Under the pieces are notes generated by a model. The model made no database searches and was not told the origin of the DNA. It saw nothing but the letters and a program-made list of their open reading frames with translations. Source: a virus. From it: DNA of 25,212 nt. The position numbers and the translations under genes were made by a program. Shown here one piece after another: positions 826 through 24,199 of the stretch; the first letter of the stretch is position 1, and every line of letters starts with the position of its first letter. The stretch lies in IMG/VR virus record IMGVR_UViG_3300010389_000074, positions 6,829 through 32,040 of that record. One strand, given 5' to 3'.

Positions 826-2624
826 CAGGCCACCTGCCCAAACGTCTTGCCGATTGAGAACGCCAACGCCCTCGCAGAATCCTTACCCTGCGACGACTGC
901 TGCCACTCATCCAACCCACGCACATACTTACGCACCTCACCCAACGTCATCGGACGAGCCTCACCAGTCCCCGTATCAGGAATGTACTGGATCACATCAC
1001 CAAACTCTTCGTACAGGTCAACGTTCGGACGGTCCAGCATCCGTTCGATCTCGTACTTGTACGGAGCGAAATACTGCTCAGGCGTGATCCCAGCGTTCAA
1101 CGCGTTCTGCAACTGCGGGAACTTGTTCGCAGCCATCTCACGGAAGTACTGCTCGACACCCTCGGTCGTCTTCGTGCCGACATAAATGTCCTGAGCAAAC
1201 TGGGCAGCGTCAGCCTCGTTAATCGGCGTAAAGTACCGCTTCGACATCGCCACAATCTCATCACGCGCCGCAGCAAAGCTCGACGCAGTCACCTCGGCAG
1301 CGTTGAACGATTCCTCAGCGGTCAACAGGCCACGGATGTACTCGGCGTCGTTCTCTTCGCCCATACGGGTGATCTGCTCAGCCAGGTCACGGGCACGACC
1401 GCTGTCCAACTGGAACCCGAGGAACTGTGCTTCTTCACGCAGCAGATCCAGCACCGGTTCGAGGTACTCGGTCTTCTGCGGTTCCGACATGTCTGCGGTG
1501 AGCACGTCGTACTCGCGCATCTTCGCGTCGGTCTTCTGCCACCACTCGGTGTTCTCGAGCAGCCCGAGGACACGGGTCGGTGCCGTGATGCCTTGGTCAA
1601 CGATGACATCAAGGATGTTCTTGACGGACGCTGCGTTGGGGTCGTCGGCTGCGACTACCTGGCCGTCTGCGGTGAGGCCGACTTGCAGGTCGCTGCGATG
1701 CTTCTGAAGGAAGAACGAGAACCCGCCGAACTGCTCTGCCAGCAAGAGCTCTACTTCTGCCTGGTTAGCGTCGCGGATCTGTGCAGCCGACAGACGGGTA
1801 ACACCGCTGCCGCCGCCGCCGCCGCCGGTTGTAACGACGCCGTCAGCACCGGGAACAGGGGCGTCATCAGGAGCCGGACGAAGATCGCCAGGACCGTAAT
1901 ACCCGGGACCAGTCAACTCCGTAGGTATCGTGCGGCCGTACATCGCCTGTTCGAATCTTGCACGCTGCTCATCGGCAGACGCCATCACAGGCTGCTCGTC
2001 TTCAGCAACATCAACAGTCGCTTCAGTTACTCGCCTAACCGCTTCGGGAGAAAACGTCGTAGAAGCACGCGCCACGTTCATGATCGACTCGTAAGCCGAA
2101 CGCACCTCGCTCGGGACTGTGCGCGCAATAAAGTTGTCGATGCCTTCCTCAAACACATTGAGATGTTCATCTGGCGTGGCAGCTACCGCTTCACGCACCG
2201 AAGGCGAAATGCGGACAGCCGTCTCGTTCAGCGGGTCAACAACAGACTCCGCTTCCAACATCTTGACTGCGGTCGGGTTCGCCGATCGCGTGTTCGCAGT
2301 CCGTTCCGCTTCGAGATCCTGAAGGGGCTGCGCCGCCACTTCCGGCAACTCAACAAGAATCCGGTCACGCAAATCGCGCGTATCAGATTCCAGCAGGTAC
2401 TCAATCGTCGGACGACCCGACAATGCATCCTTGGTATCGCTCAAGTCGTCTTCGTAATTCCGAAGCAAACTCAGCGTTTCATCAAAGATCCCTCTGACCT
2501 CAGGCGACCGTTGAATCAGAAGTTCTACACCAGCGCGACGGGTTTGCCGGTTGCCGAAGAAATCAAGATCCCCGGCGAGAATGTCAAAAACGACATCAAC
2601 AGCATCATCCCTAGTAACAGCCAT
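825..2624 (-). CDS. Virion-associated protein with Gly-linker and WW-motif module (599 aa)
   Basis: The start ATG (2622-2624) shares a base with the upstream stop (TAATG). The N-terminal ~240 residues are acidic and helical. A poly-Gly stretch near residue 265 (TTGGGGGGSG) looks like a hinge. After it comes a module with LLENTEWWQKTDAKMREY, and the C-terminal part contains FPQLQNAL, a PYKYEIE stretch and a VRGLDEWQ motif. From memory, a 'T-WW-K/R-T...R' segment followed by a FP.L..A...G element characterises a widespread family in structural operons of actinobacteriophages, usually annotated as hypothetical or minor virion protein. No catalytic residues are recognised. An internal or injected virion protein is inferred from this family and from the context after portal and giant protein. 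Confidence 0.8.
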   Translation of the reverse strand: MAVTRDDAVDVVFDILAGDLDFFGNRQTRRAGVELLIQRSPEVRGIFDETLSLLRNYEDDLSDTKDALSGRPTIEYLLESDTRDLRDRILVELPEVAAQPLQDLEAERTANTRSANPTAVKMLEAESVVDPLNETAVRISPSVREAVAATPDEHLNVFEEGIDNFIARTVPSEVRSAYESIMNVARASTTFSPEAVRRVTEATVDVAEDEQPVMASADEQRARFEQAMYGRTIPTELTGPGYYGPGDLRPAPDDAPVPGADGVVTTGGGGGGSGVTRLSAAQIRDANQAEVELLLAEQFGGFSFFLQKHRSDLQVGLTADGQVVAADDPNAASVKNILDVIVDQGITAPTRVLGLLENTEWWQKTDAKMREYDVLTADMSEPQKTEYLEPVLDLLREEAQFLGFQLDSGRARDLAEQITRMGEENDAEYIRGLLTAEESFNAAEVTASSFAAARDEIVAMSKRYFTPINEADAAQFAQDIYVGTKTTEGVEQYFREMAANKFPQLQNALNAGITPEQYFAPYKYEIERMLDRPNVDLYEEFGDVIQYIPDTGTGEARPMTLGEVRKYVRGLDEWQQSSQGKDSARALAFSIGKTFGQVA

Positions 2625-3361
2625 TATCGTCCCCGAATCCCCAACGCCTGCATCAACACACCAGCAGCACTAGCGTAATCCATCGCCCTCGCCTCCTCAG
2701 GAGCCTGCTCACGCGCAAACGCCTCCGCACGGGCACCCACATTGATCCCAGTCGCACCCGACGCCTGCAACCCATGAATCATCTTCACGAACGCCTGCTG
2801 CTCCTCAGCAGTCGCCATACGGCCAGTCACCGACGCAGTGCTCTTCTTCGCAGCGTCCATCAACGCAACCGGATCAATGTAGTTAATGACACGGCCACCG
2901 CCCGAACGAGCCTCAGCCTTCTTCTCAGCCATCAACGCTTGCAGCTCTTCAGGTGACCGGTCAGAGTTCCGCATCAACACGTCGAGGAAGTCGGTGCCGA
3001 ACCCGAACTCTGCCTGGGCTGCGGCTTCCCTAATGGCTGTGTTGACGCCTGATGTCAAAGCGCCAGGTCGGAACTGGTCGTTTTTATCGAAGTATGAGTC
3101 GTAGTCGCCAATGCCGACAGTCATCAGGTCGATGGCGAGTAGCGCCATGTCTTCTTGGTCGAACCCGGTGAAGTCAAGGTCTGTCGAGTAGATCGGTTCT
3201 GGCTCTTCGCCGCGAATATATGCACTCGGCGCAACTCGGCCACCAGTAGCCTCAACCGCAGTCAGCGTTGGAACAGGGTCGCCGTAGCCGATTACCGTGC
3301 CAGCCTGACCCCCGCCAACAAACCCTTGGCTGTAATTCGCAAACTCTTGCTCAATGCTCAT
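2624..3361 (-). CDS. Hypothetical structural-operon protein (245 aa)
   Basis: The ATG overlaps the stop of the giant gene by four bases (ATGA, 3358-3361), and its own stop overlaps the next ATG, so translation is probably coupled on both sides. The N-terminal ~70 residues are Gly/Pro-rich and extended (for example FVGGGQAGTVIGYGDP). The rest is mostly helical with Ala/Glu-rich segments, such as REAAAQAEFGFGTDF and the EEQQAFVKMIHGLQASG segment. No signal peptide, membrane segment or known motif is visible. I do not recognise a family. Position suggests a minor virion component. Confidence 0.8.
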   Translation of the reverse strand: MSIEQEFANYSQGFVGGGQAGTVIGYGDPVPTLTAVEATGGRVAPSAYIRGEEPEPIYSTDLDFTGFDQEDMALLAIDLMTVGIGDYDSYFDKNDQFRPGALTSGVNTAIREAAAQAEFGFGTDFLDVLMRNSDRSPEELQALMAEKKAEARSGGGRVINYIDPVALMDAAKKSTASVTGRMATAEEQQAFVKMIHGLQASGATGINVGARAEAFAREQAPEEARAMDYASAAGVLMQALGIRGR

Positions 3362-6300
3362 AGCAGTCCCTCAAAAGCGTCGTCCTGCACAAACGATTCC
3401 CGATCAAGCCTATCGCGTTCAAAAAAGCGGTCGTAGATAGGCGAGAACTGCGGACGCATCCCCAACTCTTCCTTCTTCGCTTCCCAGAACGTCTGCAAAT
3501 CCTCATTCGAACCTGCACCGATGTCGTCCGAACCGCCGGCAGCGTCACGCGCCTGCAACTGCCGCTGCACAAACATCCGCAACTCGAAATACTCGATCAG
3601 ATGAACGCTCGACGGGCGCTGCATGATCTGCGGGTCTTGCAGGCCAGCAGCGAACCCTTCCACGACAGCCTTCGTGCGCCGTGCCGAACGCGTCAAGTCA
3701 CGTTCCTGTTCGGCCCACTGCGGATACTTCAACGCCAGCTCGGCCTTCTTCTGCTCTTGGAACAGACGCACCGGAGCGAGATGGTCCGAGTTGATGTGAC
3801 CTGACAAGCCAGCAGCAATCGCCTCGTCCTGCTTCGACCGCACAAAGTCACGCAACTCGGTGTACTCACGCCAACCCAAATCGGCCTGCGTATCACCAAT
3901 CGCCTCAAGCGGCGTCTTGCGTTCACGCCGGGTCTGGTCGCTGCCAGGAGACAACTCCATGTTCTGCTGACGGCGATACACCGCCTGCGAGAACACCATC
4001 TGCTCATCCGTCGCACCGACACTGCCAGTGATCCACGCACCAACCTCAGGATGCGCCTGCACCAGATCCTGATGCCGCATGTAGTTCTCTTCTGCGTCAA
4101 TTGACGCAGCTACGCCATCGTTGAGCTTGGTCATGCGGGCCGTCAACGCAAAGAAGTCCTCGCCGTACTTATCGAGGAACATGTCGTTGCCGATCAGCGT
4201 GCCGTGTTCCCGCTGAAGCTTGCGGGCTTCCTGCACCAACGGTTCGTACGGCGACAGCAACGTGGTCGAGGACGGCGAGAACAGACCGGCGGCGGCACGG
4301 AAGATGAAGAAGTCTTTGGCACGGTCGTTCGCGAGTTCGATCGCAGCCTGCACCTCAAGGTCGTTGTTCCAATCGAGCGGTTCGCCAGCAGCAGACCGCT
4401 CAACAACGATGTCTTGGAACATGCGCTGCACAAGCCGCTCCTTGCTTTGCGACTGGGTGCCGTAATCGACAAGAGCTTTGGTCCACGTCGGCAAGTTGCC
4501 AACAAACGCACGTTCCAAGAACCCGCCCTCGGGATGTCCGAACGGGAACATAAACCCGAACGTCTCCTCAAGGGTCGGGTCGGCCAGGATCGCTTCACGA
4601 ACCGGGATCGTGATAAGCGGACCGAACCCTGGGACCGGGGCCTGCACAACCGTGTTCAGACCGTCCTTCGAGAACCGGACCGTAGCGTTCTGGTCACGCA
4701 ACGGTTCAGGGATCAGCAGGTTCCGCATCGCTGGCGACATCGCTTCGAAGATCGTGGTTTCGTTGCCGTCTTCATCGAACGCAGGACCGAACGGTCGGAA
4801 CGCCAGATAGGTGCCGGTGACGTTGCCTTCGGCGTCTTCGGTCGTGATCTCGCTGATACCGAGCGTTTCGGCTTCCCACGGCTTCTTGTAGATACGGATC
4901 GCGTTGCCGACAAACGTCGGGTTCTGCACCGACAGGCCAGCCCAACGACCGATCACCTCTTGCCACGCGTTGAAGAACGGCATCGCGTTGCCGACCATCT
5001 CGCTGATACGAGTGTTCTCAGCCAAGTCGTACATCAACTCACGCACTTCCAACAACGCTGCTTCTCGAGCCTGCTGCTCGATCTCGTTGATGTTGCGCTG
5101 CGACAACCGCACCGTGCCGTCTTGATCGGCCATGAGTTCGATGCGGCGGCGAAGCTCACGTTCGTACTTGACTCGAAACATCGGGTTACGGGCCAGTTCG
5201 TCGGTCGGGAGCGTGCCGAACATTTTGAACAGGCTTTCGGCATATTCTGCTGCACGTCCGGTGACAGCTCGACGGGTAGAGCTTGAGTGTGACAGCGGTT
5301 CGGGGCTGGTTGCCTTAGCGAAGTTCGGGTAGCCGGCGTCACGCGTTTCTTGAATGCGTTCCGTCAGCGACTTCTTCGGGTCAAACCCTGCCGTGCGCGC
5401 CTTCAACGTGTTCGTTACATCGCTCCACGGAACGATCTCGCCCGCACGGGCACGATCACGCAACTTGCCGAACTGGCCCGACGGCAACACCTCTTCGTAC
5501 TCGTCAATGATCCGACCAGCCATCTCTGCGATGCCGCCCTCTGGGATGCTGCCCGTCGGCGTGTTGCTCAAGCTACGCAGCAACGGCTCGTCGTTCTCCA
5601 ACAGTTCCGTCAACTTCTGCTTACGCACCACAACGTCATCGTTCGACCACACCACTTGGTAGAACCTCTGGTCGATGTCGCGTGACGTGTACTGGTTCAT
5701 CATGCGTTCCCACTGCTTGGAGATGTCGCCATCCTCCAACGCATCGAACACACGCCAATCAACGTCTTGGAACCGTTCCACCTGGCGTTGCGCGTCGGCA
5801 CGGGCACCCGAGTACACCGCCGACTGCGACCGAGAAGCCGACACGTTCGCACGAATCTGCTCCTGATACCGAGGGTCGTCACCAAACGCGTTACGGAACG
5901 TCACGCCACCAATGTGAACACCGCCAACACCAGCCTGCTGCATCAACTCCTCAGCAGCATCAAACGCGTTACGGACATCGCTAGCGCCATCGATCTCACG
6001 CTGCACCAGCTCCTCGATGTACGAGGCGTCGTCCTGCAACTTGCGGATCGCAGCAAGATCGCCACCGTCAGCGTCGGTGATCTGACGCAGCATCAACTCG
6101 GCTTCGTTACGCAACGCACCCGCATAGTTCAACGCAGCCTTACGCTCCAACGCCTGGTTGATCCGGCGGCGTTTGCCGGCGTACGCAGCGAACCCGTACA
6201 CGGCACCCAACACAGGGTTACCCATAAACACGCCGACACCGCTGCCCTTCGCCGCAGCGTTCAAACCCAACCGGCGCAGGTTCGACCGGCGACCAGCTTG

Positions 6301-8907
6301 GTTGCGGTACGCCAACACCTTCTCACGAACCAACTGCTTCACAGCATCGTTCAACCCGTCAGGGCCAGCAGCCTCCAACAGATCAAGCAGCGACGGGTCG
6401 CCCTCAGCACGCAGCCGCATCCGTTGCTGGATCAGTTCGGTACGACGAGCGCCCTCAGCAGCAGGCATGTCAGTCACACGTCCGTACTGCTCCAACTGCT
6501 CATCCAACTGACGCGTGATGTCATCGATCTGATCGGCAGCGGTGCGTTGACCGGCACGTTCCCGCAACACACGGGTCAACTGTTCAATGTCGGTCGCTTC
6601 ATCAATGCCAGCCAGGTTGTGCAGCGCGAACGCTCGACGCATCTCAGGGAACGCCGTGACGAGGTTGCCCAACGTCGTCAACGCACCCATGTCAGCCATC
6701 GCACGCAACTGCTCATCAATGCCGACACGCATCGGCCAGGCAGGACGCAGCAACATGCCGGAACGCCACGCCTGCTGCGGACTGTCCAGCACCGGCCGCA
6801 ACCGAGTCATCGAGCCTCGAGCCACGTCACCGACCGTCACCGCAATCTTCTGTGCGCCTCGGCCTGCACGGGCCTGCGCCATTTCGATCTGGCGTTGCAC
6901 GATGTCGTAGCGGGGCTGCACCATCGAGGCTTTGACCTGCGACGGCGAGTACCGGTGATGCAGAATATAGGTGTCGTCGGTTTCGCCTTGTCGACGGACT
7001 GTGATCGAAAAGTCAGCGCCGTCCTCGGTCACACCAACCGTACGAGCCTTCTCGCTCTCGTTCATCCAAGCGAGCTGCTGTTCGTCGTACGCGTCGGTCA
7101 ACGCACGTTTCGTCTTATCAATGCCTTCAATGCCAGAATCGGCCAGTAGGTCATCAAGCCTGCCGTTGAAGGTGCGGACAGTGTTCTCGTACAGCCTCGA
7201 CATGCCAGCAACATCGTTCTGCATCTTCAACGCCTGGAACGACGACACCAGCCGACCAGCTTCCTGAGCGTCAACGATCTGTGCGCCGTTGATGTTGATG
7301 CGTTCAGCCTGCGTGATGACCCGTTCAAACTGGCGAACAACCCCTGCGTCATTAAAGAAGATGACCGACTGTGGGACGCGTTCGGTCAGGACTCGGATAG
7401 CGCGCCCGAACGGGCCACCCAACGCACCGCCGACCGTGTGCGGGTTAGCGAACTCGCTGACGACATACTTGCCGCCTTGCTGCTCCAACACCTCAGAGTG
7501 CCGACGCAACATGCTGTCAAGCCGGCTACCCCACGGCGTGTTCGCCATGCCGAGGACGCTGCCGTACGCGTCTTTGCTCATCCCGGCAATGCTCTCAAGC
7601 GCAGCGAGCGTTTCGTCAACGTGTTCCGCAGCGTGCGACGCAAACGTTGTCGCTTTCTGCGTGCCCACATAACGGTTCAAGCCGCTATCAAAATCAAGAG
7701 CGATCTGTTGTGACTTGAACAGGGCTTCTCGGAACTGCGACATCACAGCCCAGTCCGTCTTCTCAGCCAACTCACGGAACTTGGCTACACCTACAGCGTC
7801 GCCGCCCTTAGGGTCACGCAACGCCTTCTGGATCTCTGCCCAGTTATCGCCCTGCATGATCTCACGAAGCTGCTTTGCTTCATCAGCGACCTCTTTAAGA
7901 ACGCTCGTGTCGCCGAGCAACGCACGCATCGTCCGCTCACGGGCAGTAGCCGTCTCAGCGTTCACGAACAAACGAATCGCGTCATCGCCCATCCGCTTGC
8001 TGGCCTTGCCAGTCACCTGCTTAAACGCGTTGAACCGGTCATCGACGCTGTCAAGCTTCGCCATGACCGACTCGATGCGGCCGTAATCCTTGGTCTTGGT
8101 GAATTGTTTGGCACGCTGCGCTGTGTGCGACTGGATGATCCGCTCACGGTTCCGAAGCTGCTGCTCGGTCTTCGTCAGGAACCCACGCTGCTTGCCGAGG
8201 ATCTCAACAGGCCGGAAACCAGTGCGACCGCCGTACACCCTCGTAATGTCCTTCGGGCGACCGATCAGCGCACCACGGCGACCAGCTTGGGCAGGGCCAA
8301 ACACGGCAGCGCCTCGAGCGGCCTTAAACAACGTGCCGCCAATAATCGTCACCGGGTCAATGAACTCCTGCACGAAGTCGGCGGTGCCGGAGATCAGGTT
8401 GAACAGCGGGTCGTCTTGGATCGCGTTGTATTCGTCCTCATCGAACGGGTCGATCCGGTACAGGTTCGCTGCGAACGACTGCCCGAACGTGCGAGCATCG
8501 TTGATTTCCCACGCACGCGAATACGTTTCCAGATCAAACAGGTTCTGGATGCCGTTCACTGACGTTGCGTTAACGACCGTAAACAGGGTGCCGAGTGGCC
8601 GGTCAACAATCTCCTGCACCGCCCAGTCCCACGCACCAAACACCGGATCGATCACGTTGCCAGACACGTTGCGGACCGGTTCGGGGATAGCGCCGAAGAC
8701 TGCGCCGCCGATGCCCTCGGGGCCGAACAAGCCGCCCATCGTCTGCCCAAGAATCTCTTCTTGGAACGAGTTCAGAACTTGACCGAGCGCTTCCGTCGGA
8801 CCCTCAGTAAACAACGTCTCAGTCGCCTGGAACCCGTCAGCAATAAAGTCAACAGGACCGGTGATGACATCCGTCGCACCGTTATACAACTTGTCGAAGA
8901 ACCCCAT
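3358..8907 (-). CDS. Giant virion-associated (probably injected) protein, 1849 aa
   Basis: The largest gene of the window. Its ATG (8905-8907) shares a base with the upstream stop, and it ends in an ATGA overlap. The N-terminus (MGFFDKLYNGATDVITGP, then several GG/FG-containing hydrophobic stretches to about residue 200) looks membrane-interacting. Residues about 890-912 form another hydrophobic Gly/Ala-rich segment followed by KRRR. Near residues 1309-1315 is MPFFNAW followed by a conserved RW, which from memory occurs in very large phage proteins carried in the virion and injected with DNA. Most of the remainder is charged, helical and Gln/Arg-rich. I see no clear lysozyme or transglycosylase glutamate motif or protease motif. 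A gene this long directly after portal is more typical of podovirus-like ejection proteins than of a tape measure, which usually follows the tail-tube genes. The functional call is inference; the reading frame is certain. Confidence 0.85.
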   Translation of the reverse strand: MGFFDKLYNGATDVITGPVDFIADGFQATETLFTEGPTEALGQVLNSFQEEILGQTMGGLFGPEGIGGAVFGAIPEPVRNVSGNVIDPVFGAWDWAVQEIVDRPLGTLFTVVNATSVNGIQNLFDLETYSRAWEINDARTFGQSFAANLYRIDPFDEDEYNAIQDDPLFNLISGTADFVQEFIDPVTIIGGTLFKAARGAAVFGPAQAGRRGALIGRPKDITRVYGGRTGFRPVEILGKQRGFLTKTEQQLRNRERIIQSHTAQRAKQFTKTKDYGRIESVMAKLDSVDDRFNAFKQVTGKASKRMGDDAIRLFVNAETATARERTMRALLGDTSVLKEVADEAKQLREIMQGDNWAEIQKALRDPKGGDAVGVAKFRELAEKTDWAVMSQFREALFKSQQIALDFDSGLNRYVGTQKATTFASHAAEHVDETLAALESIAGMSKDAYGSVLGMANTPWGSRLDSMLRRHSEVLEQQGGKYVVSEFANPHTVGGALGGPFGRAIRVLTERVPQSVIFFNDAGVVRQFERVITQAERININGAQIVDAQEAGRLVSSFQALKMQNDVAGMSRLYENTVRTFNGRLDDLLADSGIEGIDKTKRALTDAYDEQQLAWMNESEKARTVGVTEDGADFSITVRRQGETDDTYILHHRYSPSQVKASMVQPRYDIVQRQIEMAQARAGRGAQKIAVTVGDVARGSMTRLRPVLDSPQQAWRSGMLLRPAWPMRVGIDEQLRAMADMGALTTLGNLVTAFPEMRRAFALHNLAGIDEATDIEQLTRVLRERAGQRTAADQIDDITRQLDEQLEQYGRVTDMPAAEGARRTELIQQRMRLRAEGDPSLLDLLEAAGPDGLNDAVKQLVREKVLAYRNQAGRRSNLRRLGLNAAAKGSGVGVFMGNPVLGAVYGFAAYAGKRRRINQALERKAALNYAGALRNEAELMLRQITDADGGDLAAIRKLQDDASYIEELVQREIDGASDVRNAFDAAEELMQQAGVGGVHIGGVTFRNAFGDDPRYQEQIRANVSASRSQSAVYSGARADAQRQVERFQDVDWRVFDALEDGDISKQWERMMNQYTSRDIDQRFYQVVWSNDDVVVRKQKLTELLENDEPLLRSLSNTPTGSIPEGGIAEMAGRIIDEYEEVLPSGQFGKLRDRARAGEIVPWSDVTNTLKARTAGFDPKKSLTERIQETRDAGYPNFAKATSPEPLSHSSSTRRAVTGRAAEYAESLFKMFGTLPTDELARNPMFRVKYERELRRRIELMADQDGTVRLSQRNINEIEQQAREAALLEVRELMYDLAENTRISEMVGNAMPFFNAWQEVIGRWAGLSVQNPTFVGNAIRIYKKPWEAETLGISEITTEDAEGNVTGTYLAFRPFGPAFDEDGNETTIFEAMSPAMRNLLIPEPLRDQNATVRFSKDGLNTVVQAPVPGFGPLITIPVREAILADPTLEETFGFMFPFGHPEGGFLERAFVGNLPTWTKALVDYGTQSQSKERLVQRMFQDIVVERSAAGEPLDWNNDLEVQAAIELANDRAKDFFIFRAAAGLFSPSSTTLLSPYEPLVQEARKLQREHGTLIGNDMFLDKYGEDFFALTARMTKLNDGVAASIDAEENYMRHQDLVQAHPEVGAWITGSVGATDEQMVFSQAVYRRQQNMELSPGSDQTRRERKTPLEAIGDTQADLGWREYTELRDFVRSKQDEAIAAGLSGHINSDHLAPVRLFQEQKKAELALKYPQWAEQERDLTRSARRTKAVVEGFAAGLQDPQIMQRPSSVHLIEYFELRMFVQRQLQARDAAGGSDDIGAGSNEDLQTFWEAKKEELGMRPQFSPIYDRFFERDRLDRESFVQDDAFEGLL

Positions 8908-18659: not shown

Positions 18660-18865
18660 TGGGTTTCGTCGTTGCTGCTGCGGCCGGCATCGTTGTTGGG
18701 TTCGGTGCCGGTCGCAGCCTCTGGTACGAGCGTTGGGTGAGGGATCGTCGCGATCGTGCGGCGATTGCTCAGGCCAGACGCATCAATTCTCATTTCACAC
18801 AACCAAGGAGAGTCCATGTTGGACGTACAGAAATATTGGATGGAAGATCAGATTCGTCGTCGTGA
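18659..18865 (+). CDS. Small membrane-anchored protein (68 aa)
   Basis: Residues 2-18 (GFVVAAAAGIVVGFGAG) form a membrane helix, followed by a strongly basic segment (RWVRDRRDRAAIAQARR) that would lie in the cytoplasm. Start by TAATG overlap. The last 50 bases overlap the start of the nuclease gene and include that gene's GGAGAG ribosome site, so the C-terminus may be less constrained. The function is unknown. Confidence 0.6.
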   Translation: MGFVVAAAAGIVVGFGAGRSLWYERWVRDRRDRAAIAQARRINSHFTQPRRVHVGRTEILDGRSDSSS

Positions 18866-19718
18866 CGAAGCGGGTCCGAAGCCCACTGCTTTCAATACCC
18901 CGTTCAGGGCAAGCGATGCGGGTGCCTGCGTCCGCAAAATGACGCTGAGCGCTTTCGACGCGATGGAGTCGGACGAGTTCTCGTCGCAGACGTACATGGC
19001 GTTCGAGATCGGCAACGCAGTCCACAAGTCCATTCAGGATGCGTTGGAGTGCGACGGCAACGGGTGGTACTTCGAAAGCGAGGTGCCGATTGATCTGTCT
19101 GAGGTGACGAAGAAGGTCGGGCACGGCATCGAGTCGTTCGGTCTGTCTGGTCACTGCGACGGGATCATCACGCAGAACGGCTCCGGCATCAAGACGGTGG
19201 TCGAGATCAAGACGGTGAGCGGGTACGCAGCGAAGCTGGCGTGGCCGTACATGCGAGGCGGCAAGGGCGGCAACGACGCAGGACCAAAAAGGGAGCACAC
19301 GGCGCAGGCGGCCCTCTATGCGCTCGGTGTCGAAGCCGAGTCGATCATGATCGTGTACGTCGCGAAGGAAGGCGACTACCGGTCGGGCATCAAGGCCGGC
19401 GACATCATGCAGTGGGACTTCCACCTGCACGAAACGACCGACTACTGGAACGGCCAGACGCCGTACGACATCGCGATGAATCAGCTGCGTCACTTCCAGT
19501 ACGCAAGCCGGTTCTATGCGAAGGGTCAGGTTGCTCCGGCGTTCGTGCCGAACGACGACGGTGAGCTGGTGCTGGTGCATGACCGTCCTGAGTACATGCA
19601 GAAGGGCGGCAAGCCCTGGAACTGTGCGTACTGCAACTACAACACGATGTGCCGCAGCCTGTCGGAGGACGAGGTGCCGGTCGAGATGATTGAGAGGTCG
19701 AAGCGTGCGGAGTCCTGA
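18816..19718 (+). CDS. Cas4/RecB-like PD-(D/E)XK exonuclease with Fe-S cysteines (300 aa)
   Basis: Catalytic residues of the RecB nuclease fold are visible: H70 (GNAVHKSI), D115 (SGHCDGII), E130 and K132 (VVEIKT), and Q164 (HTAQAALYAL). Four cysteines, C38 near the N-terminus and C270, C273 and C279 in CAYCNYNTMC, have the arrangement of the Cas4/AddB-type 4Fe-4S clamp. This predicts a single-strand-generating DNA exonuclease acting in recombination or replication. The annealing protein and SSB two to three genes downstream complete a recombination module. An AAGGAGAG five bases before the ATG at 18816 decides the start; the in-frame upstream ATG at 18756 has none. It is not a CRISPR protein here: no array or other cas genes are present. 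Confidence 0.88.
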   Translation: MLDVQKYWMEDQIRRRDEAGPKPTAFNTPFRASDAGACVRKMTLSAFDAMESDEFSSQTYMAFEIGNAVHKSIQDALECDGNGWYFESEVPIDLSEVTKKVGHGIESFGLSGHCDGIITQNGSGIKTVVEIKTVSGYAAKLAWPYMRGGKGGNDAGPKREHTAQAALYALGVEAESIMIVYVAKEGDYRSGIKAGDIMQWDFHLHETTDYWNGQTPYDIAMNQLRHFQYASRFYAKGQVAPAFVPNDDGELVLVHDRPEYMQKGGKPWNCAYCNYNTMCRSLSEDEVPVEMIERSKRAES

Positions 19719-20972: not shown

Positions 20973-21121
20973 TGGGAAACGACGCAACCATCACCCTGCG
21001 ACTCCCCAGAGACATCGTGGAACGGCTTGACCAGTTGGCTGAGGAAGACGACATCAACCGGTCGTTGCTGATCCGTCGCCTGCTGCTCACCGGCTTGGCG
21101 AAGCGAGTCTCGACGGCATGA
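20972..21121 (+). CDS. Ribbon-helix-helix regulator, Arc/CopG type (49 aa)
   Basis: A short protein beginning MGNDATITLRLPRDIVERLD: a beta strand (TITLRLP) followed by two helices (DIVERLDQLAEEDD and NRSLLIRRLLLTGLA), with the usual N-cap R-S-L at helix 2. This is the Arc/CopG/MetJ fold; dimers bind operator DNA by the strand. It is squeezed between ssb and the winged-helix gene by TAATG and ATGA overlaps. It may autoregulate this operon or act on one of the palindromes here; which site it binds is unknown. Confidence 0.82.
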   Translation: MGNDATITLRLPRDIVERLDQLAEEDDINRSLLIRRLLLTGLAKRVSTA

Positions 21122-21756
21122 CGAAGCGGCCCATGAGGTCGCGTGAACCGTTTGCGATCGTGCCGGTGCGGCTACTCGTCGAAGTCAACAACTCCGCCCT
21201 GAGGGTGTACATCGTGTTGGCTCAAATGGCGAACGTCGACACCGGCCGGTCGTGGCCCTCGAACGACACGATCGCTGAACGCACGGGGCTGAAACGCACC
21301 GCCGTGAAGGACGGTATCCGGCAGCTGGCTGACAAGGGCTGGTTGACGAAGGTTGAGCGTCCTGGGAAGTCGTCGGTGTTTACCGTGGAACACACCACAG
21401 GGGGGTCGGCTACACGACCCCCAGGGGGTCGCTCAGGCGACCAGGAGGGGGTCGCCCAGGCGACCCCTAACTATACCAATGAACTACACCAAGAGAGTTC
21501 TGTATCTAAAAAGTGTGTGGACTGCGGCAAGCCTGCTGACATCAACCCGTTCACGGGCGAACCGAACCCTCGATGCCGGCAGTGTTACAGCACACACAAA
21601 GAACCGAAGCAAGATCCACGATTCCAAGCGGCTACATACCGTGTCTGGACGCCAGAGGAGGCCCCTGATGACTCAAGCGATGCTCGAGTTGAGGTGGCGA
21701 ACATCCGTAGACGCCTCCAGAGCGTCTCTGACGGCTTCGTGGACGAAGAAGAGTAA
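21118..21756 (+). CDS. Winged-helix protein, likely replication initiator (212 aa)
   Basis: Residues 10-90 form a winged helix of the type found in phage replication proteins: LRVYIVLAQMANVDTGRSWP, SNDTIAERTGLKRTAVKDGI and RQLADKGWLTKVERPGK. Residues 95-130 are a Gly/Thr/Gln-rich linker whose DNA carries three palindromes and an AT-rich tract. Residues 133-156 contain a four-cysteine zinc finger (CVDCGKPA ... RCRQC). The C-terminus is acidic (DGFVDEEE). Known analogues are lambda O and other helix-turn-helix initiators that carry their own origin within the gene. The initiator call is inference from fold, neighbours (ssb, annealing protein) and internal repeats; a transcription factor is the alternative. 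Confidence 0.7.
   Translation: MTKRPMRSREPFAIVPVRLLVEVNNSALRVYIVLAQMANVDTGRSWPSNDTIAERTGLKRTAVKDGIRQLADKGWLTKVERPGKSSVFTVEHTTGGSATRPPGGRSGDQEGVAQATPNYTNELHQESSVSKKCVDCGKPADINPFTGEPNPRCRQCYSTHKEPKQDPRFQAATYRVWTPEEAPDDSSDARVEVANIRRRLQSVSDGFVDEEE
21401..21518. other. Candidate replication origin: three palindromes plus AT-rich stretch
   Basis: GGGGGTCG (21401-21408) pairs with 21415-21422; GGTCGC (21427-21432) with 21437-21442; GGGGTCGC (21448-21455) with 21460-21467. The three GGGGTCG/CGACCCC palindromes are directly followed by 21468-21518, about 67% A+T by hand count in a GC-rich genome. Position inside the winged-helix gene, between its DNA-binding and C-terminal parts, parallels lambda ori in gene O. 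Confidence 0.5.
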
Positions 21757-22467: not shown

Positions 22468-22796
22468 GCGACGAAAAACTCGACTACATCGTGGGAACGA
22501 CCTCGATGAAAAACCTTGTCAGAAGCTGGGAAGACACCTACGCCAACCGGCAAGCCGACGCGCAGTGGAAAGATTGCCACGACAATTGCCTGCTCGCTGC
22601 ACCTGCCGTTGACAGGACAGCCAGCGAAATGTGGCAAGACGGACTGTTTGTATACGCAACTTTCCACGACGAGACGTGCCCGAACCGTGGTTGGCGATTG
22701 GTAATCAACGAACAAGGAGGCAAACGGGTCAAAGGCGGCGACGCATCATTGCAAAAAGCCGAAGAACTTGGCTTTTTCAAGCAGGACAACGAATGA
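22464..22796 (+). CDS. Hypothetical protein (110 aa)
   Basis: ATG at 22464 in an ATGA overlap with the lipoprotein stop; the longer in-frame start at 22413 reads through that gene. The product is hydrophilic with KNLVRSWEDTYANRQADAQW, three cysteines in WKDCHDNC and DETCPNRGW, and a C-terminal RVKGGDASLQKAEELGFFKQ. No family is recognised. It is joined to the methyltransferase by another ATGA overlap, so the two are probably translated together. Confidence 0.7.
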   Translation: MSDEKLDYIVGTTSMKNLVRSWEDTYANRQADAQWKDCHDNCLLAAPAVDRTASEMWQDGLFVYATFHDETCPNRGWRLVINEQGGKRVKGGDASLQKAEELGFFKQDNE

Positions 22797-23884
22797 GGAT
22801 CGGATCGCTCTGCACCGGCATCGCCGGCCTAGAACTCGGACTGCAATACGCAGGCATCGAAACCAAGCCCGTGTTCGTATCCGACATCGACCCCGGCGCA
22901 TGCGACTGGCTCGACCAAACCATGCCGCACACCCCGAATCTCGGCGACTTCACTCAGCTTGATGAGCTTCCCGAGTGCGACATACTCACCGCAGGGTTCC
23001 CCTGCCAACCCGTATCACAAGCAGGACTACGCAAAGGAATCAACGATGACCGGTGGCTCTTCGATGACATCTGCCGACTTGTTAGCCGAATGGACTCACG
23101 ACCCGTCCTCTTCCTCGAAAACGTCCCCGGCATCCTCACTGCAAACAGTGGGGACGCTATGGGCAGAGTCGTTCACGGACTGGCCGACATCGGGTACTAC
23201 ATCACCTGGGGGACTCTTCCAGCATCCGCCGTTGGAGCACCCCATCGCCGCAACCGATGGTGGGGACTTGCCTACCCTTCCGACTCCGTTGTCGCACGAC
23301 CACAAAAACAACGCGTCACCGTCCCGATTGAACCGCAACACTCCGGGGCTGGGAGCGATCGCCATGCTACTACCGACGCCTCTGGCTCGGGACACACCGA
23401 AGGCTGGGAGGCGAGCGACCAGGACCAGCTCGGACGCTCTGCCAGACGTGGTGGAGGATCTGCTGCCGACACCGAACGCATCCGAAACCGGAGCGGTCAG
23501 GGATCTCTCAAAGAGGACGGGACATCACTTCGAGTTGTCGGACGCGGTACAACTGCTGCCGACCCCGTTGGCGAGAGACGGCAAGGACGGCAAGCCAAAC
23601 CCGAACATTCCGACGAACAGCTTTCTTGGGAGAGAGATATGGGAACTCGTTTCGGACGATGGGCACCAGCAGTCGCCCGATGGGAACACATCCTCGGACG
23701 ATCAGCCCCAGACCCGCACATCGAGCAACGACTAAACCCCGCCTTCGTTGAATGGATGATGGGCTACCCCGAAGGATGGGTAACCGACACGCTGACTCGA
23801 CGCACCCACTCGCTCAAAGCACTCGGCAACGCCGTCGTTCCCCAATGCGCTGCGGAAGCATTCCTGCAACTCTCCACGCGCTAA
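22793..23884 (+). CDS. DNA cytosine-5 methyltransferase (363 aa)
   Basis: C5-methyltransferase motifs in order: I SLCTGIAGLELGL (5-17), IV GFPCQPVSQAG with catalytic C71, VI FLENVPG (107-113), VIII GAPHRRNRWW (148-157), the phage-type RLNPAFVEWMMGYPEGWVTD block (313-332) and X ALGNAVVPQCA (343-353). Residues ~165-300 are the variable target-recognition region. It methylates C5 of cytosine in a specific DNA sequence, protecting phage DNA from host restriction; no partner nuclease is next to it. The start is the ATGA overlap at 22793; an upstream in-frame start at 22631 lies in the previous gene. In 23460-23663 only 47% of codons in this frame end in G/C against 71% in the embedded frame (hand count), so the recognition region is under unusual coding pressure. 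Confidence 0.95.
   Translation: MRIGSLCTGIAGLELGLQYAGIETKPVFVSDIDPGACDWLDQTMPHTPNLGDFTQLDELPECDILTAGFPCQPVSQAGLRKGINDDRWLFDDICRLVSRMDSRPVLFLENVPGILTANSGDAMGRVVHGLADIGYYITWGTLPASAVGAPHRRNRWWGLAYPSDSVVARPQKQRVTVPIEPQHSGAGSDRHATTDASGSGHTEGWEASDQDQLGRSARRGGGSAADTERIRNRSGQGSLKEDGTSLRVVGRGTTAADPVGERRQGRQAKPEHSDEQLSWERDMGTRFGRWAPAVARWEHILGRSAPDPHIEQRLNPAFVEWMMGYPEGWVTDTLTRRTHSLKALGNAVVPQCAAEAFLQLSTR
23046..23735 (+). CDS. LPTP-repeat protein embedded out of frame in the methyltransferase gene (229 aa)
   Basis: A frame one base off the methyltransferase is open for 229 codons. It begins with ATG at 23046, preceded by AAAGGAA (23033-23039) at a seven-base spacing from GGA, a good ribosome site. The protein has SKTSPASSLQTVGTLWAESF, DWPTSGTTSPGGLFQHPPLE, and four LPTP units (LPTPLSHD, LLPTPLARD, LLPTPNASE, LLPTPLARDGKDG; the last two at 23460 and 23553). 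From memory, these phrases (W..SG...G....PPL, then repeated LLPTPxA.D) are characteristic of variable parts of phage and actinobacterial C5-methyltransferase proteins, so the frame looks selected and not accidental. Its role is unknown; target recognition in trans or via a frameshifted fusion are possibilities. Confidence 0.6.
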   Translation: MTGGSSMTSADLLAEWTHDPSSSSKTSPASSLQTVGTLWAESFTDWPTSGTTSPGGLFQHPPLEHPIAATDGGDLPTLPTPLSHDHKNNASPSRLNRNTPGLGAIAMLLPTPLARDTPKAGRRATRTSSDALPDVVEDLLPTPNASETGAVRDLSKRTGHHFELSDAVQLLPTPLARDGKDGKPNPNIPTNSFLGREIWELVSDDGHQQSPDGNTSSDDQPQTRTSSND

Positions 23885-23893
23885 CCTGCGCCA

Positions 23894-24124
23894 ATGAGAT
23901 TCTTCGGACGCGAAAAGTTCGCAGGCAACGACGACTTCCTCGGACTGTTCGTCATCGGCTGGGACGTAACCGGACGCCGGCCGATCGCAGCGATCACCGA
24001 CGAACCCTGGGAACGCCTAACGATCCGTCAAGAATCCGAAGTGTTCAAACTTCTTGCCGAGCTGGCTCTGGACGTTGCGCCGTTTACGTTGCCGGACAAC
24101 ATGGAAGAGTTTCTCGAGGAGTAG
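23894..24124 (+). CDS. Hypothetical protein (76 aa), last rightward gene
   Basis: ATG at 23894, nine bases after the methyltransferase stop, without a clear ribosome site. It is an ordinary globular-looking sequence: MRFFGREKFAGNDDFLGLFV, WERLTIRQESEVFKLLAELA and an acidic C-terminus FTLPDNMEEFLEE. No family is recognised. It ends directly against the 3' end of the tRNA-like element on the opposite strand and is followed by the bidirectional terminator. Confidence 0.65.
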   Translation: MRFFGREKFAGNDDFLGLFVIGWDVTGRRPIAAITDEPWERLTIRQESEVFKLLAELALDVAPFTLPDNMEEFLEE

Positions 24125-24199
24125 TGGAGGCGGCGGGAATCGAACCCGCGTAACCCGCACCTGCATTGGCCGGTGCAGCGAACCCAACTGCTCGCCCCC
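24125..24199 (-). tRNA. tRNA-like element, possibly degenerate tRNA or attachment core
   Basis: Read leftward, a 75-base segment starts GGGGGCG and ends CGCCTCC-A, giving a seven-pair acceptor stem (one G-U). It has a perfect T-arm, GCGGG-TTCGATT-CCCGC. A D-arm-like AGC-loop-GCT with GG in the loop and a GCACC/GGTGC stem are present, but the latter encloses ten bases instead of seven and no standard U33-anticodon loop can be placed. No CCA follows. It may be a decayed phage tRNA, a tRNA-like structure, or the tRNA-derived part of an attachment site; no integrase is seen in the window. Confidence 0.45.

Follow-up and report, generated by a model that had tools for sequence, protein, structure and literature searches.

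The window, which is the whole stretch of 25,212 nucleotides of viral DNA that was analyzed here, carries on its plus strand a methyltransferase gene (frame A, or alpha) and, inside this gene and one base off (+1), a second long open frame (frame B, or beta). By its motifs and profile matches, frame A is a C5-cytosine methyltransferase. All of the motifs of such enzymes lie in this single frame, as a preliminary description of this DNA had read them; motifs I–VIII, IX and X, with PCQ, ENV, GAPHRR and LGN, are conserved in an alignment with relatives. The Pfam family DNA_methylase (PF00145) matches its residues 1–356 (E=1.8e-41), and NCBIfam dcm (TIGR00675, 1.7e-35) and phrog_363 (3.4e-55) match it as well. 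The C-terminal part also matches phrog_1008, at profile positions 214–317. The features of frame A are:

22793–23884, plus strand: frame A, alpha, predicted C5-cytosine methyltransferase of 363 amino acids (motifs I–VIII, IX and X; Pfam, NCBIfam and phrog profile matches)
22994–23008, plus strand: motif IV GFPCQ with the catalytic Cys, frame A (sequence; conserved in the alignment of relatives)
23234–23251, plus strand: motif VIII GAPHRR, frame A, used as the frame anchor (alignment of relatives and sequence)
23729–23770, plus strand: motif IX-like RLNPAFVEWMMGYP, frame A; in E-type relatives the motif sits in beta (alignment and sequence)
23813–23830, plus strand: motif X LKALGN, frame A (sequence)

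Some other features of the window were recorded along the way. On the minus strand, 3358–8907 encodes an 1849 amino acid protein that matches phrog_10618 (function unknown) best in its C-terminal part, and a Cas4-like exonuclease (18756–19718; phrog_1706, 1.1e-25) lies near a replication-initiation protein (21118–21756). ARAGORN reports a minus-strand tRNA at 24124–24199 with an undefined anticodon, whose GCACC/GGTGC stem encloses a loop of 10 bases instead of the usual 7; both nearest relatives carry this sequence 3' of the methyltransferase (L001 near 3113, L002 near 4381).

Frame B is open for 229 codons, as was described previously, and stops at 23735. Its ATG at 23046 is preceded by the Shine-Dalgarno sequence that the same description had pointed out, with 7 nt between the GGA and the ATG. 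A second possible start is the ATG at 23064, and the open +1 stretch extends back to 22959, where a TTG start is found. The features of frame B, and of frame A opposite its repeats, are:

23033–23039, plus strand: Shine-Dalgarno AAAGGAA for frame B, overlapping the RKG codons of frame A (sequence; codon choice in relatives)
23046–23735, plus strand: beta gene of 229 codons (frame B), nested in the alpha gene and +1 to it (phrog_1008 match; frame-B purifying selection; open frame)
23277–23369, plus strand: LPTP module 1, frame B (31-codon period)
23370–23462, plus strand: LPTP module 2, frame B (31-codon period)
23463–23555, plus strand: LPTP module 3, frame B; the frame A reading of CTGCTGCCGACACC at 23460 is AADT (31-codon period)
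23556–23648, plus strand: LPTP module 4, frame B; the same family occurs in frame 0 of the fused enzyme L176 (31-codon period)
23291–23608, plus strand: '(V)ADT' shadow of the LPTP array, frame A residues 167–272 (AlphaFold2, predicted disordered)

The four LPTP words begin at 23277, 23370, 23463 and 23556; the repeat itself had been noticed before, and its exact spacing of 93 nt (31 codons) is new. Recomputed over 23460–23663, GC3 comes to 0.71 for frame B and to 0.48 for frame A, which bears out the earlier hand count; the other sequence details of the preliminary description proved right as well. A pattern scan for CTGCTGCCGACACC returned mostly unrelated GC-rich loci. Pfam and NCBIfam searches gave no family for frame B, and phrog_1008, annotated as 'DNA methyltransferase', matches its residues 4–147 at profile positions 64–206 (E=4.8e-21). 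The RWE and motif IX–X part of this profile (214–317) is absent from frame B, and it is this part that frame A matches. Since one stretch of the profile is matched by frame B and the adjoining one by the C-terminal part of frame A, what is one phrog_1008 chain elsewhere is distributed here over two frames. This agrees with the earlier statement that the LLPTP and (V)ADT readings both occur in phage methyltransferases. The window beta has neither a catalytic motif nor motif IX.

The chance occurrence of such a frame was estimated in 2000 shuffles of the window gene, in which the frame A protein and its codon usage were held fixed. Frame B was open in 2.3% of the shuffles (P=0.0225) and the longest +1 stretch was equalled in 0.55%. 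By contrast, the four LPTP words compare with 0.25 expected (shuffle mean); the shuffle maximum was three, and four were never reached. Taken by itself, the window's open frame B is no more than suggestive; its LPTP repeat counts as strong evidence, and the comparative data are decisive.

For the comparison we used 33 loci with the window's layout, mostly metagenomic contigs, which form 22 clusters at 80% identity. Relative to synonymous shuffles of frame A, these loci hold a single stop in frame +1 where 31.7 are expected. They also hold 98 LPTP words vs 6.0 expected, although the stop count is the cleaner figure since LPTP presence partly defined the nested type. The mismatch rates between nested loci at the three codon positions of frame A (A1/A2/A3) are 0.149/0.099/0.422 in the N-terminal part and 0.148/0.124/0.445 in the C-terminal part, whereas in the variable part they are 0.344/0.131/0.092, so that here it is the third position of frame B that varies most. 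Between the 80% clusters, the A1:A3 ratio is 0.46 in the N-terminal part (bootstrap interval 0.38–0.63), 2.92 in the variable part (1.89–4.22) and 0.42 in the C-terminal part (0.36–0.51), and the interval of the variable part overlaps neither of the others. These rates show that frame A governs the substitutions at both ends of the gene, in the N- and C-terminal parts, and frame B those in the variable part. The free synonymous variation in frame A that the preliminary description had asked about is absent, and the synonymous sites of frame A (position 2 of frame B) are the most conserved ones in the variable region.

The same pattern can be seen in single pairs. For example, between Streptomyces phage Darolandstone and L172 the variable part contains 24 changes that are nonsynonymous in A and synonymous in B (10.3 expected) and 6 that are synonymous in A and nonsynonymous in B (11.1 expected). 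The comparison of Raleigh with L172 is weaker (16 vs 11.9) because their modules differ. Close nested pairs also show frame-B-type substitution (L124/L127: 15, 2, 2; L003/L004: 7, 0, 1). In the 26 codons before motif VIII synonymous change is reduced to 0.38–0.44, against about 0.6, which suggests that beta is constrained upstream of its modules as well. Homologues with a broken frame B are rare: among the 33 nested loci the LPTP region is interrupted only in L008, by an in-frame TGA at about 3611, right after the second LPTP word. The nested layout was also found in the isolates Darolandstone and Raleigh, both Streptomyces phages in which only frame A is annotated, and in Planotetraspora phitsanulokensis. 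Sequencing indels, which had been raised as a possible cause, are ruled out by the recurrence of the layout in independently sequenced isolates. By these comparisons the second frame concealed in the gene is genuinely protein-coding and conserved, and the substitution pattern shows that both frames are kept by selection in the same DNA, with frame B as the protein-constrained one in the variable region.

The start signals of frame B leave a trace in the codon choice of frame A. Among the nested relatives, the Gly of the AGxRxG sequence is encoded by GGA in 13 of 26 (5.0 expected, z 4.1) and the Asp that follows it by GAT in 16 of 25 (6.3 expected, z 4.6), z-scores that are optimistic due to the kinship among the loci (22 clusters at 80% identity, 13 at 60%). 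An AAGGA(G) together with an ATG lies at about −63/−58 codons from motif VIII in most loci. Together, the preferences for GGA and GAT provide a Shine-Dalgarno sequence and an ATG for frame B at a conserved distance from motif VIII. Thus, the synonymous codon choice of frame A, as these counts show, favors the start signals of beta. The position of the beta start shifts between lineages, and it is different or indistinct in the Raleigh/mycobacteriophage (actinophage) branch.

Another question is what frame A does opposite the modules. With the frame B protein held fixed, frame A contains no stops in 28 nested loci where 68.2 are expected, a count that is biased toward an open frame A as the loci were partly recruited through a frame A match; the third frame of the same 28 loci has 82 stops vs 80.7 expected. 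In the split relatives, whose alpha is truncated, 12 frame A stops compare with 13.3 expected. These counts show that alpha must read through the variable region and that nested loci keep frame A open. In the split phages, whose alpha is cut short, this constraint is gone: once frame B has taken over the C-terminal motifs, frame A closes, as the near-expected count of the split relatives indicates. In the alignment of relatives, the amino acids of frame A are not conserved in the variable region. AlphaFold2, with a shallow alignment of 12 sequences, gives residues 167–272 a pLDDT of about 30 without secondary structure, vs roughly 55–88 for most of the frame A core. A segment that is kept open, yet is unconserved and predicted to be disordered, looks like filler. 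The earlier proposal of dual coding is corrected in one respect: in the variable region it is frame B that is under amino acid selection, and all that is required of frame A there is an open reading.

Three-frame translations of the relatives revealed four layouts. In the nested layout, which is that of the window, motifs VIII and IX are in frame 0 and LPTP is in +1. In the E-type layout (M.EcoHK31I-like) LPTP and a motif IX-like EWMMGYP are in +1, motif X is in frame 0 and both frames are open. In the split layout LPTP, IX and X are all in +1 and alpha is truncated, and in the fused layout there is a single ORF with LPTP in frame 0, although the first module is often still in +1. Over all loci, the LPTP words fall in frames +1, 0 and +2 relative to motif VIII in a ratio of 191:46:11 (191/248 in +1). 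The LPTP modules of fused relatives are located between motifs VIII and IX, which in C5-methyltransferases is the place of the target-recognition domain. The modules, with a median spacing of 33 codons, are reshuffled between loci: module families are common to the fused, nested and split types, five nested loci carry the family to which the window's fourth module belongs, as does the fused L176 in its frame 0, and Raleigh and Darolandstone have the catalytic part in common and differ in their modules. For one fused relative AlphaFold gave a good, HhaI-like catalytic core (Foldseek E=3.7e-13) and an LPTP part of low confidence (pLDDT 25–50).

A tree built from the catalytic N-terminal part places the window within a clade of 19 nested rows (support 94/87); the fused type is dispersed over this tree with 7 changes and the split type with 4. 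On this tree the nested state is long-lived, and frame switches occur between lineages. The preliminary description had proposed that the LPTP and (V)ADT families arise in part from one DNA read in two ways, either by real dual coding or by switching of the target-recognition domain through frameshift. The double reading and real dual coding are both borne out by the 191 of 248 LPTP words in +1 and by the tests on the 33 loci; switching within one genome found no support, though lineages did switch frames.

Several observations were made on the other layouts. In E-type loci (L016, L019, L031, L070 and others), CRMDDGLP of alpha and EWMMGYP of beta are the same DNA read one base apart, so that motif IX itself is dual-coded, and substitutions in the E-type C region follow frame B (0.34, 0.17, 0.20). 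In L085–L094 (mycobacteriophages and others) the beta N-terminal FSGHS.PYSETLPTSGMTRNG... is the +1 shadow of motifs VII–VIII (LGDLADLGYDAQW). Over this region synonymous change is very low in the fused genes, 0.06 in one block (few sequences), due to which a short beta may still be made there. In L093 (Gordonia phage Inspectinfecti) an annotated endonuclease CDS (1482–1937) lies wholly within the methyltransferase CDS (1097–3055), and other Gordonia phages have HNH or LAGLIDADG genes listed inside the methyltransferase match.

Two-part designs among C5-methyltransferases have been known from the 1990s. The small gene of M.EcoHK31I lies inside the large gene in a different frame, and M.EaeI is a further two-polypeptide enzyme. 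Both M.EcoHK31I polypeptides are reportedly required in vitro, going by the title of a 1995 paper by Lee et al. In M.EcoHK31I the large polypeptide has motifs I–VIII and X and the small one has motif IX, with the recognition domain predicted in the large one (PMC3404938). The window resembles it in having an alpha with motifs I–VIII and X and a second polypeptide whose reading frame, other than that of alpha, apparently lies within the alpha gene; it differs in that motif IX is in alpha (frame A, 23729–23770) and frame B is an LPTP array. The window locus would thus be a phage variant of the M.EcoHK31I-like design rather than a member of it, given the place of motif IX. M.AquI is also made of two polypeptides, with the break in the variable region (PMC3404938), but it is split by position, with motifs IX–X in the small subunit and no nested recognition array. 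A plasmid search for an M.EcoHK31I-like beta gave only one Bacteroides and one Paenibacillus match.

Closer to the window are the Paenibacillus phages Tadhana (gp54/gp55) and Bloom (gp56/gp57), in which beta is wholly inside alpha in +1 and the two CDSs were annotated by the depositors as 'DNA-cytosine methyltransferase' pairs. Their modules are related to those of the window (WPTP/WATP/WGTP), but their beta ends with a motif IX-like LNPDWVECLMGFP that the window has in alpha. The phrog_1008 split halves of the actinophages Ovechkin (gp70), Camperdownii (gp75), Samy (gp50) and Upyo (gp53) have LPTP in +1 to motif VIII, as in the window, but their beta holds motifs IX and X together with LPTP, alpha is truncated and frame A has stops. 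The fused enzymes Ramsey gp69, DillTech15 gp66 and L176 have the same module families as the window, between VIII and IX, but in a single ORF and, except for the first modules, in the catalytic frame. In the multispecific C5-methyltransferases of Bacillus phages (SP-beta, phi3T), recognition modules that can be exchanged stand in arrays between VIII and IX; these enzymes are single chains without a second frame, and the likeness considered here is one of array layout. The earlier statement that no description of such a locus is known does not hold in view of the M.EcoHK31I two-polypeptide enzyme (PMC3404938) and the nested CDSs annotated in Paenibacillus phages; in the literature covered, nothing on phage methyltransferases with nested or overprinted genes describes this variant, which is weak evidence of absence.

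The mechanism that fits these data best, to which we give a probability of about 0.72, is that the locus encodes an overlapping two-polypeptide C5-cytosine methyltransferase with a catalytic alpha and a nested beta that carries the target-recognition modules. Alpha would be translated straight through frame A, with motifs I–VIII, IX and X, and its target-recognition slot would hold only the unstructured shadow of the overlapping reading. Beta would initiate at an internal ribosome-binding site within alpha, at the conserved RKGxxDD codons, and carry an array of LPTP modules of about 31 residues each, exchangeable by recombination; it would dock on alpha and supply the recognition of the DNA target. 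We infer that beta is translated, that it assembles with alpha and that the LPTP modules recognize DNA, the last because fused enzymes carry the same modules in frame, in the interval from motif VIII to motif IX, and because the modules are reshuffled between loci.

One may ask whether beta belongs to the enzyme at all, since the coding evidence does not itself show assembly and the window beta is without a catalytic motif; frame B could be a separate protein with its own role, such as a regulator, an inhibitor or an anti-restriction factor. This is unlikely, as the same modules are found between motifs VIII and IX of single-ORF methyltransferases, the split phages join them to motifs IX–X in one ORF that phrog_1008 names 'DNA methyltransferase', and alpha's own recognition slot looks disordered. 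The sharing of modules across nested, split and fused types, the switching of frames between lineages and the broken copy in L008 would also suit a silent cassette store, in which the modules persist through recombination with relatives that express them in frame and the copy itself is unexpressed. Yet the nested state is stable over the 19-row clade (94/87) that includes the window, the close pairs L124/L127 and L003/L004 still show frame-B-type substitution and the start signals are conserved, which makes such a store quite improbable.

A third option takes the natural fused single-ORF relatives as its model, with two programmed frameshifts (from A to B after motif VIII and from B to A before motif IX) inserting the LPTP array in one chain. 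In programmed frameshifting the first frame is free to close past the shift site; in the nested loci it stays open, with no stops vs 68 expected. Such shifts would also make do without a Shine-Dalgarno sequence and ATG for frame B and without any constraint on this frame before motif VIII, yet both are seen. Based on the continuous alpha, the frame B constraint before motif VIII and the internal Shine-Dalgarno/ATG, two separately started polypeptides are favored, and we regard the double frameshift as very improbable. Finally, base composition and the conserved motifs of frame A could have left frame B open by chance, and for the window by itself an open frame B is no more than moderately unlikely (P=0.0225). 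The codon shuffles, in which four LPTP words never appeared, the comparative tests on the 33 relatives and the flip of phase in the variable region refute chance openness, and hardly any weight is left to it.

Beyond this locus, it is possible, though we put it at somewhat under an even chance, that the overlapping two-polypeptide methyltransferases form a large and stable phage clade whose specificity is provided in trans by an overprinted, exchangeable LPTP subunit, while the slot in the catalytic chain is a non-folding shadow; such a division of labor would be HsdS-like but laid out in two frames. Long same-strand nested genes that are selected in both frames have rarely been proven in phages, and this case is one that can be tested by substitution counts. 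The nested layout recurs in at least 33 loci, which include named isolates with only frame A annotated and a bacterial genome, and it implies that many genes have been missed and recognition domains assigned wrongly. It also explains why the (V)ADT and LPTP motifs in methyltransferase variable regions look like separate families. The locus gives a simple model of a protein part that moves between fused, split and overprinted states, and it offers a natural two-part methyltransferase whose specificity is modular and possibly swappable.
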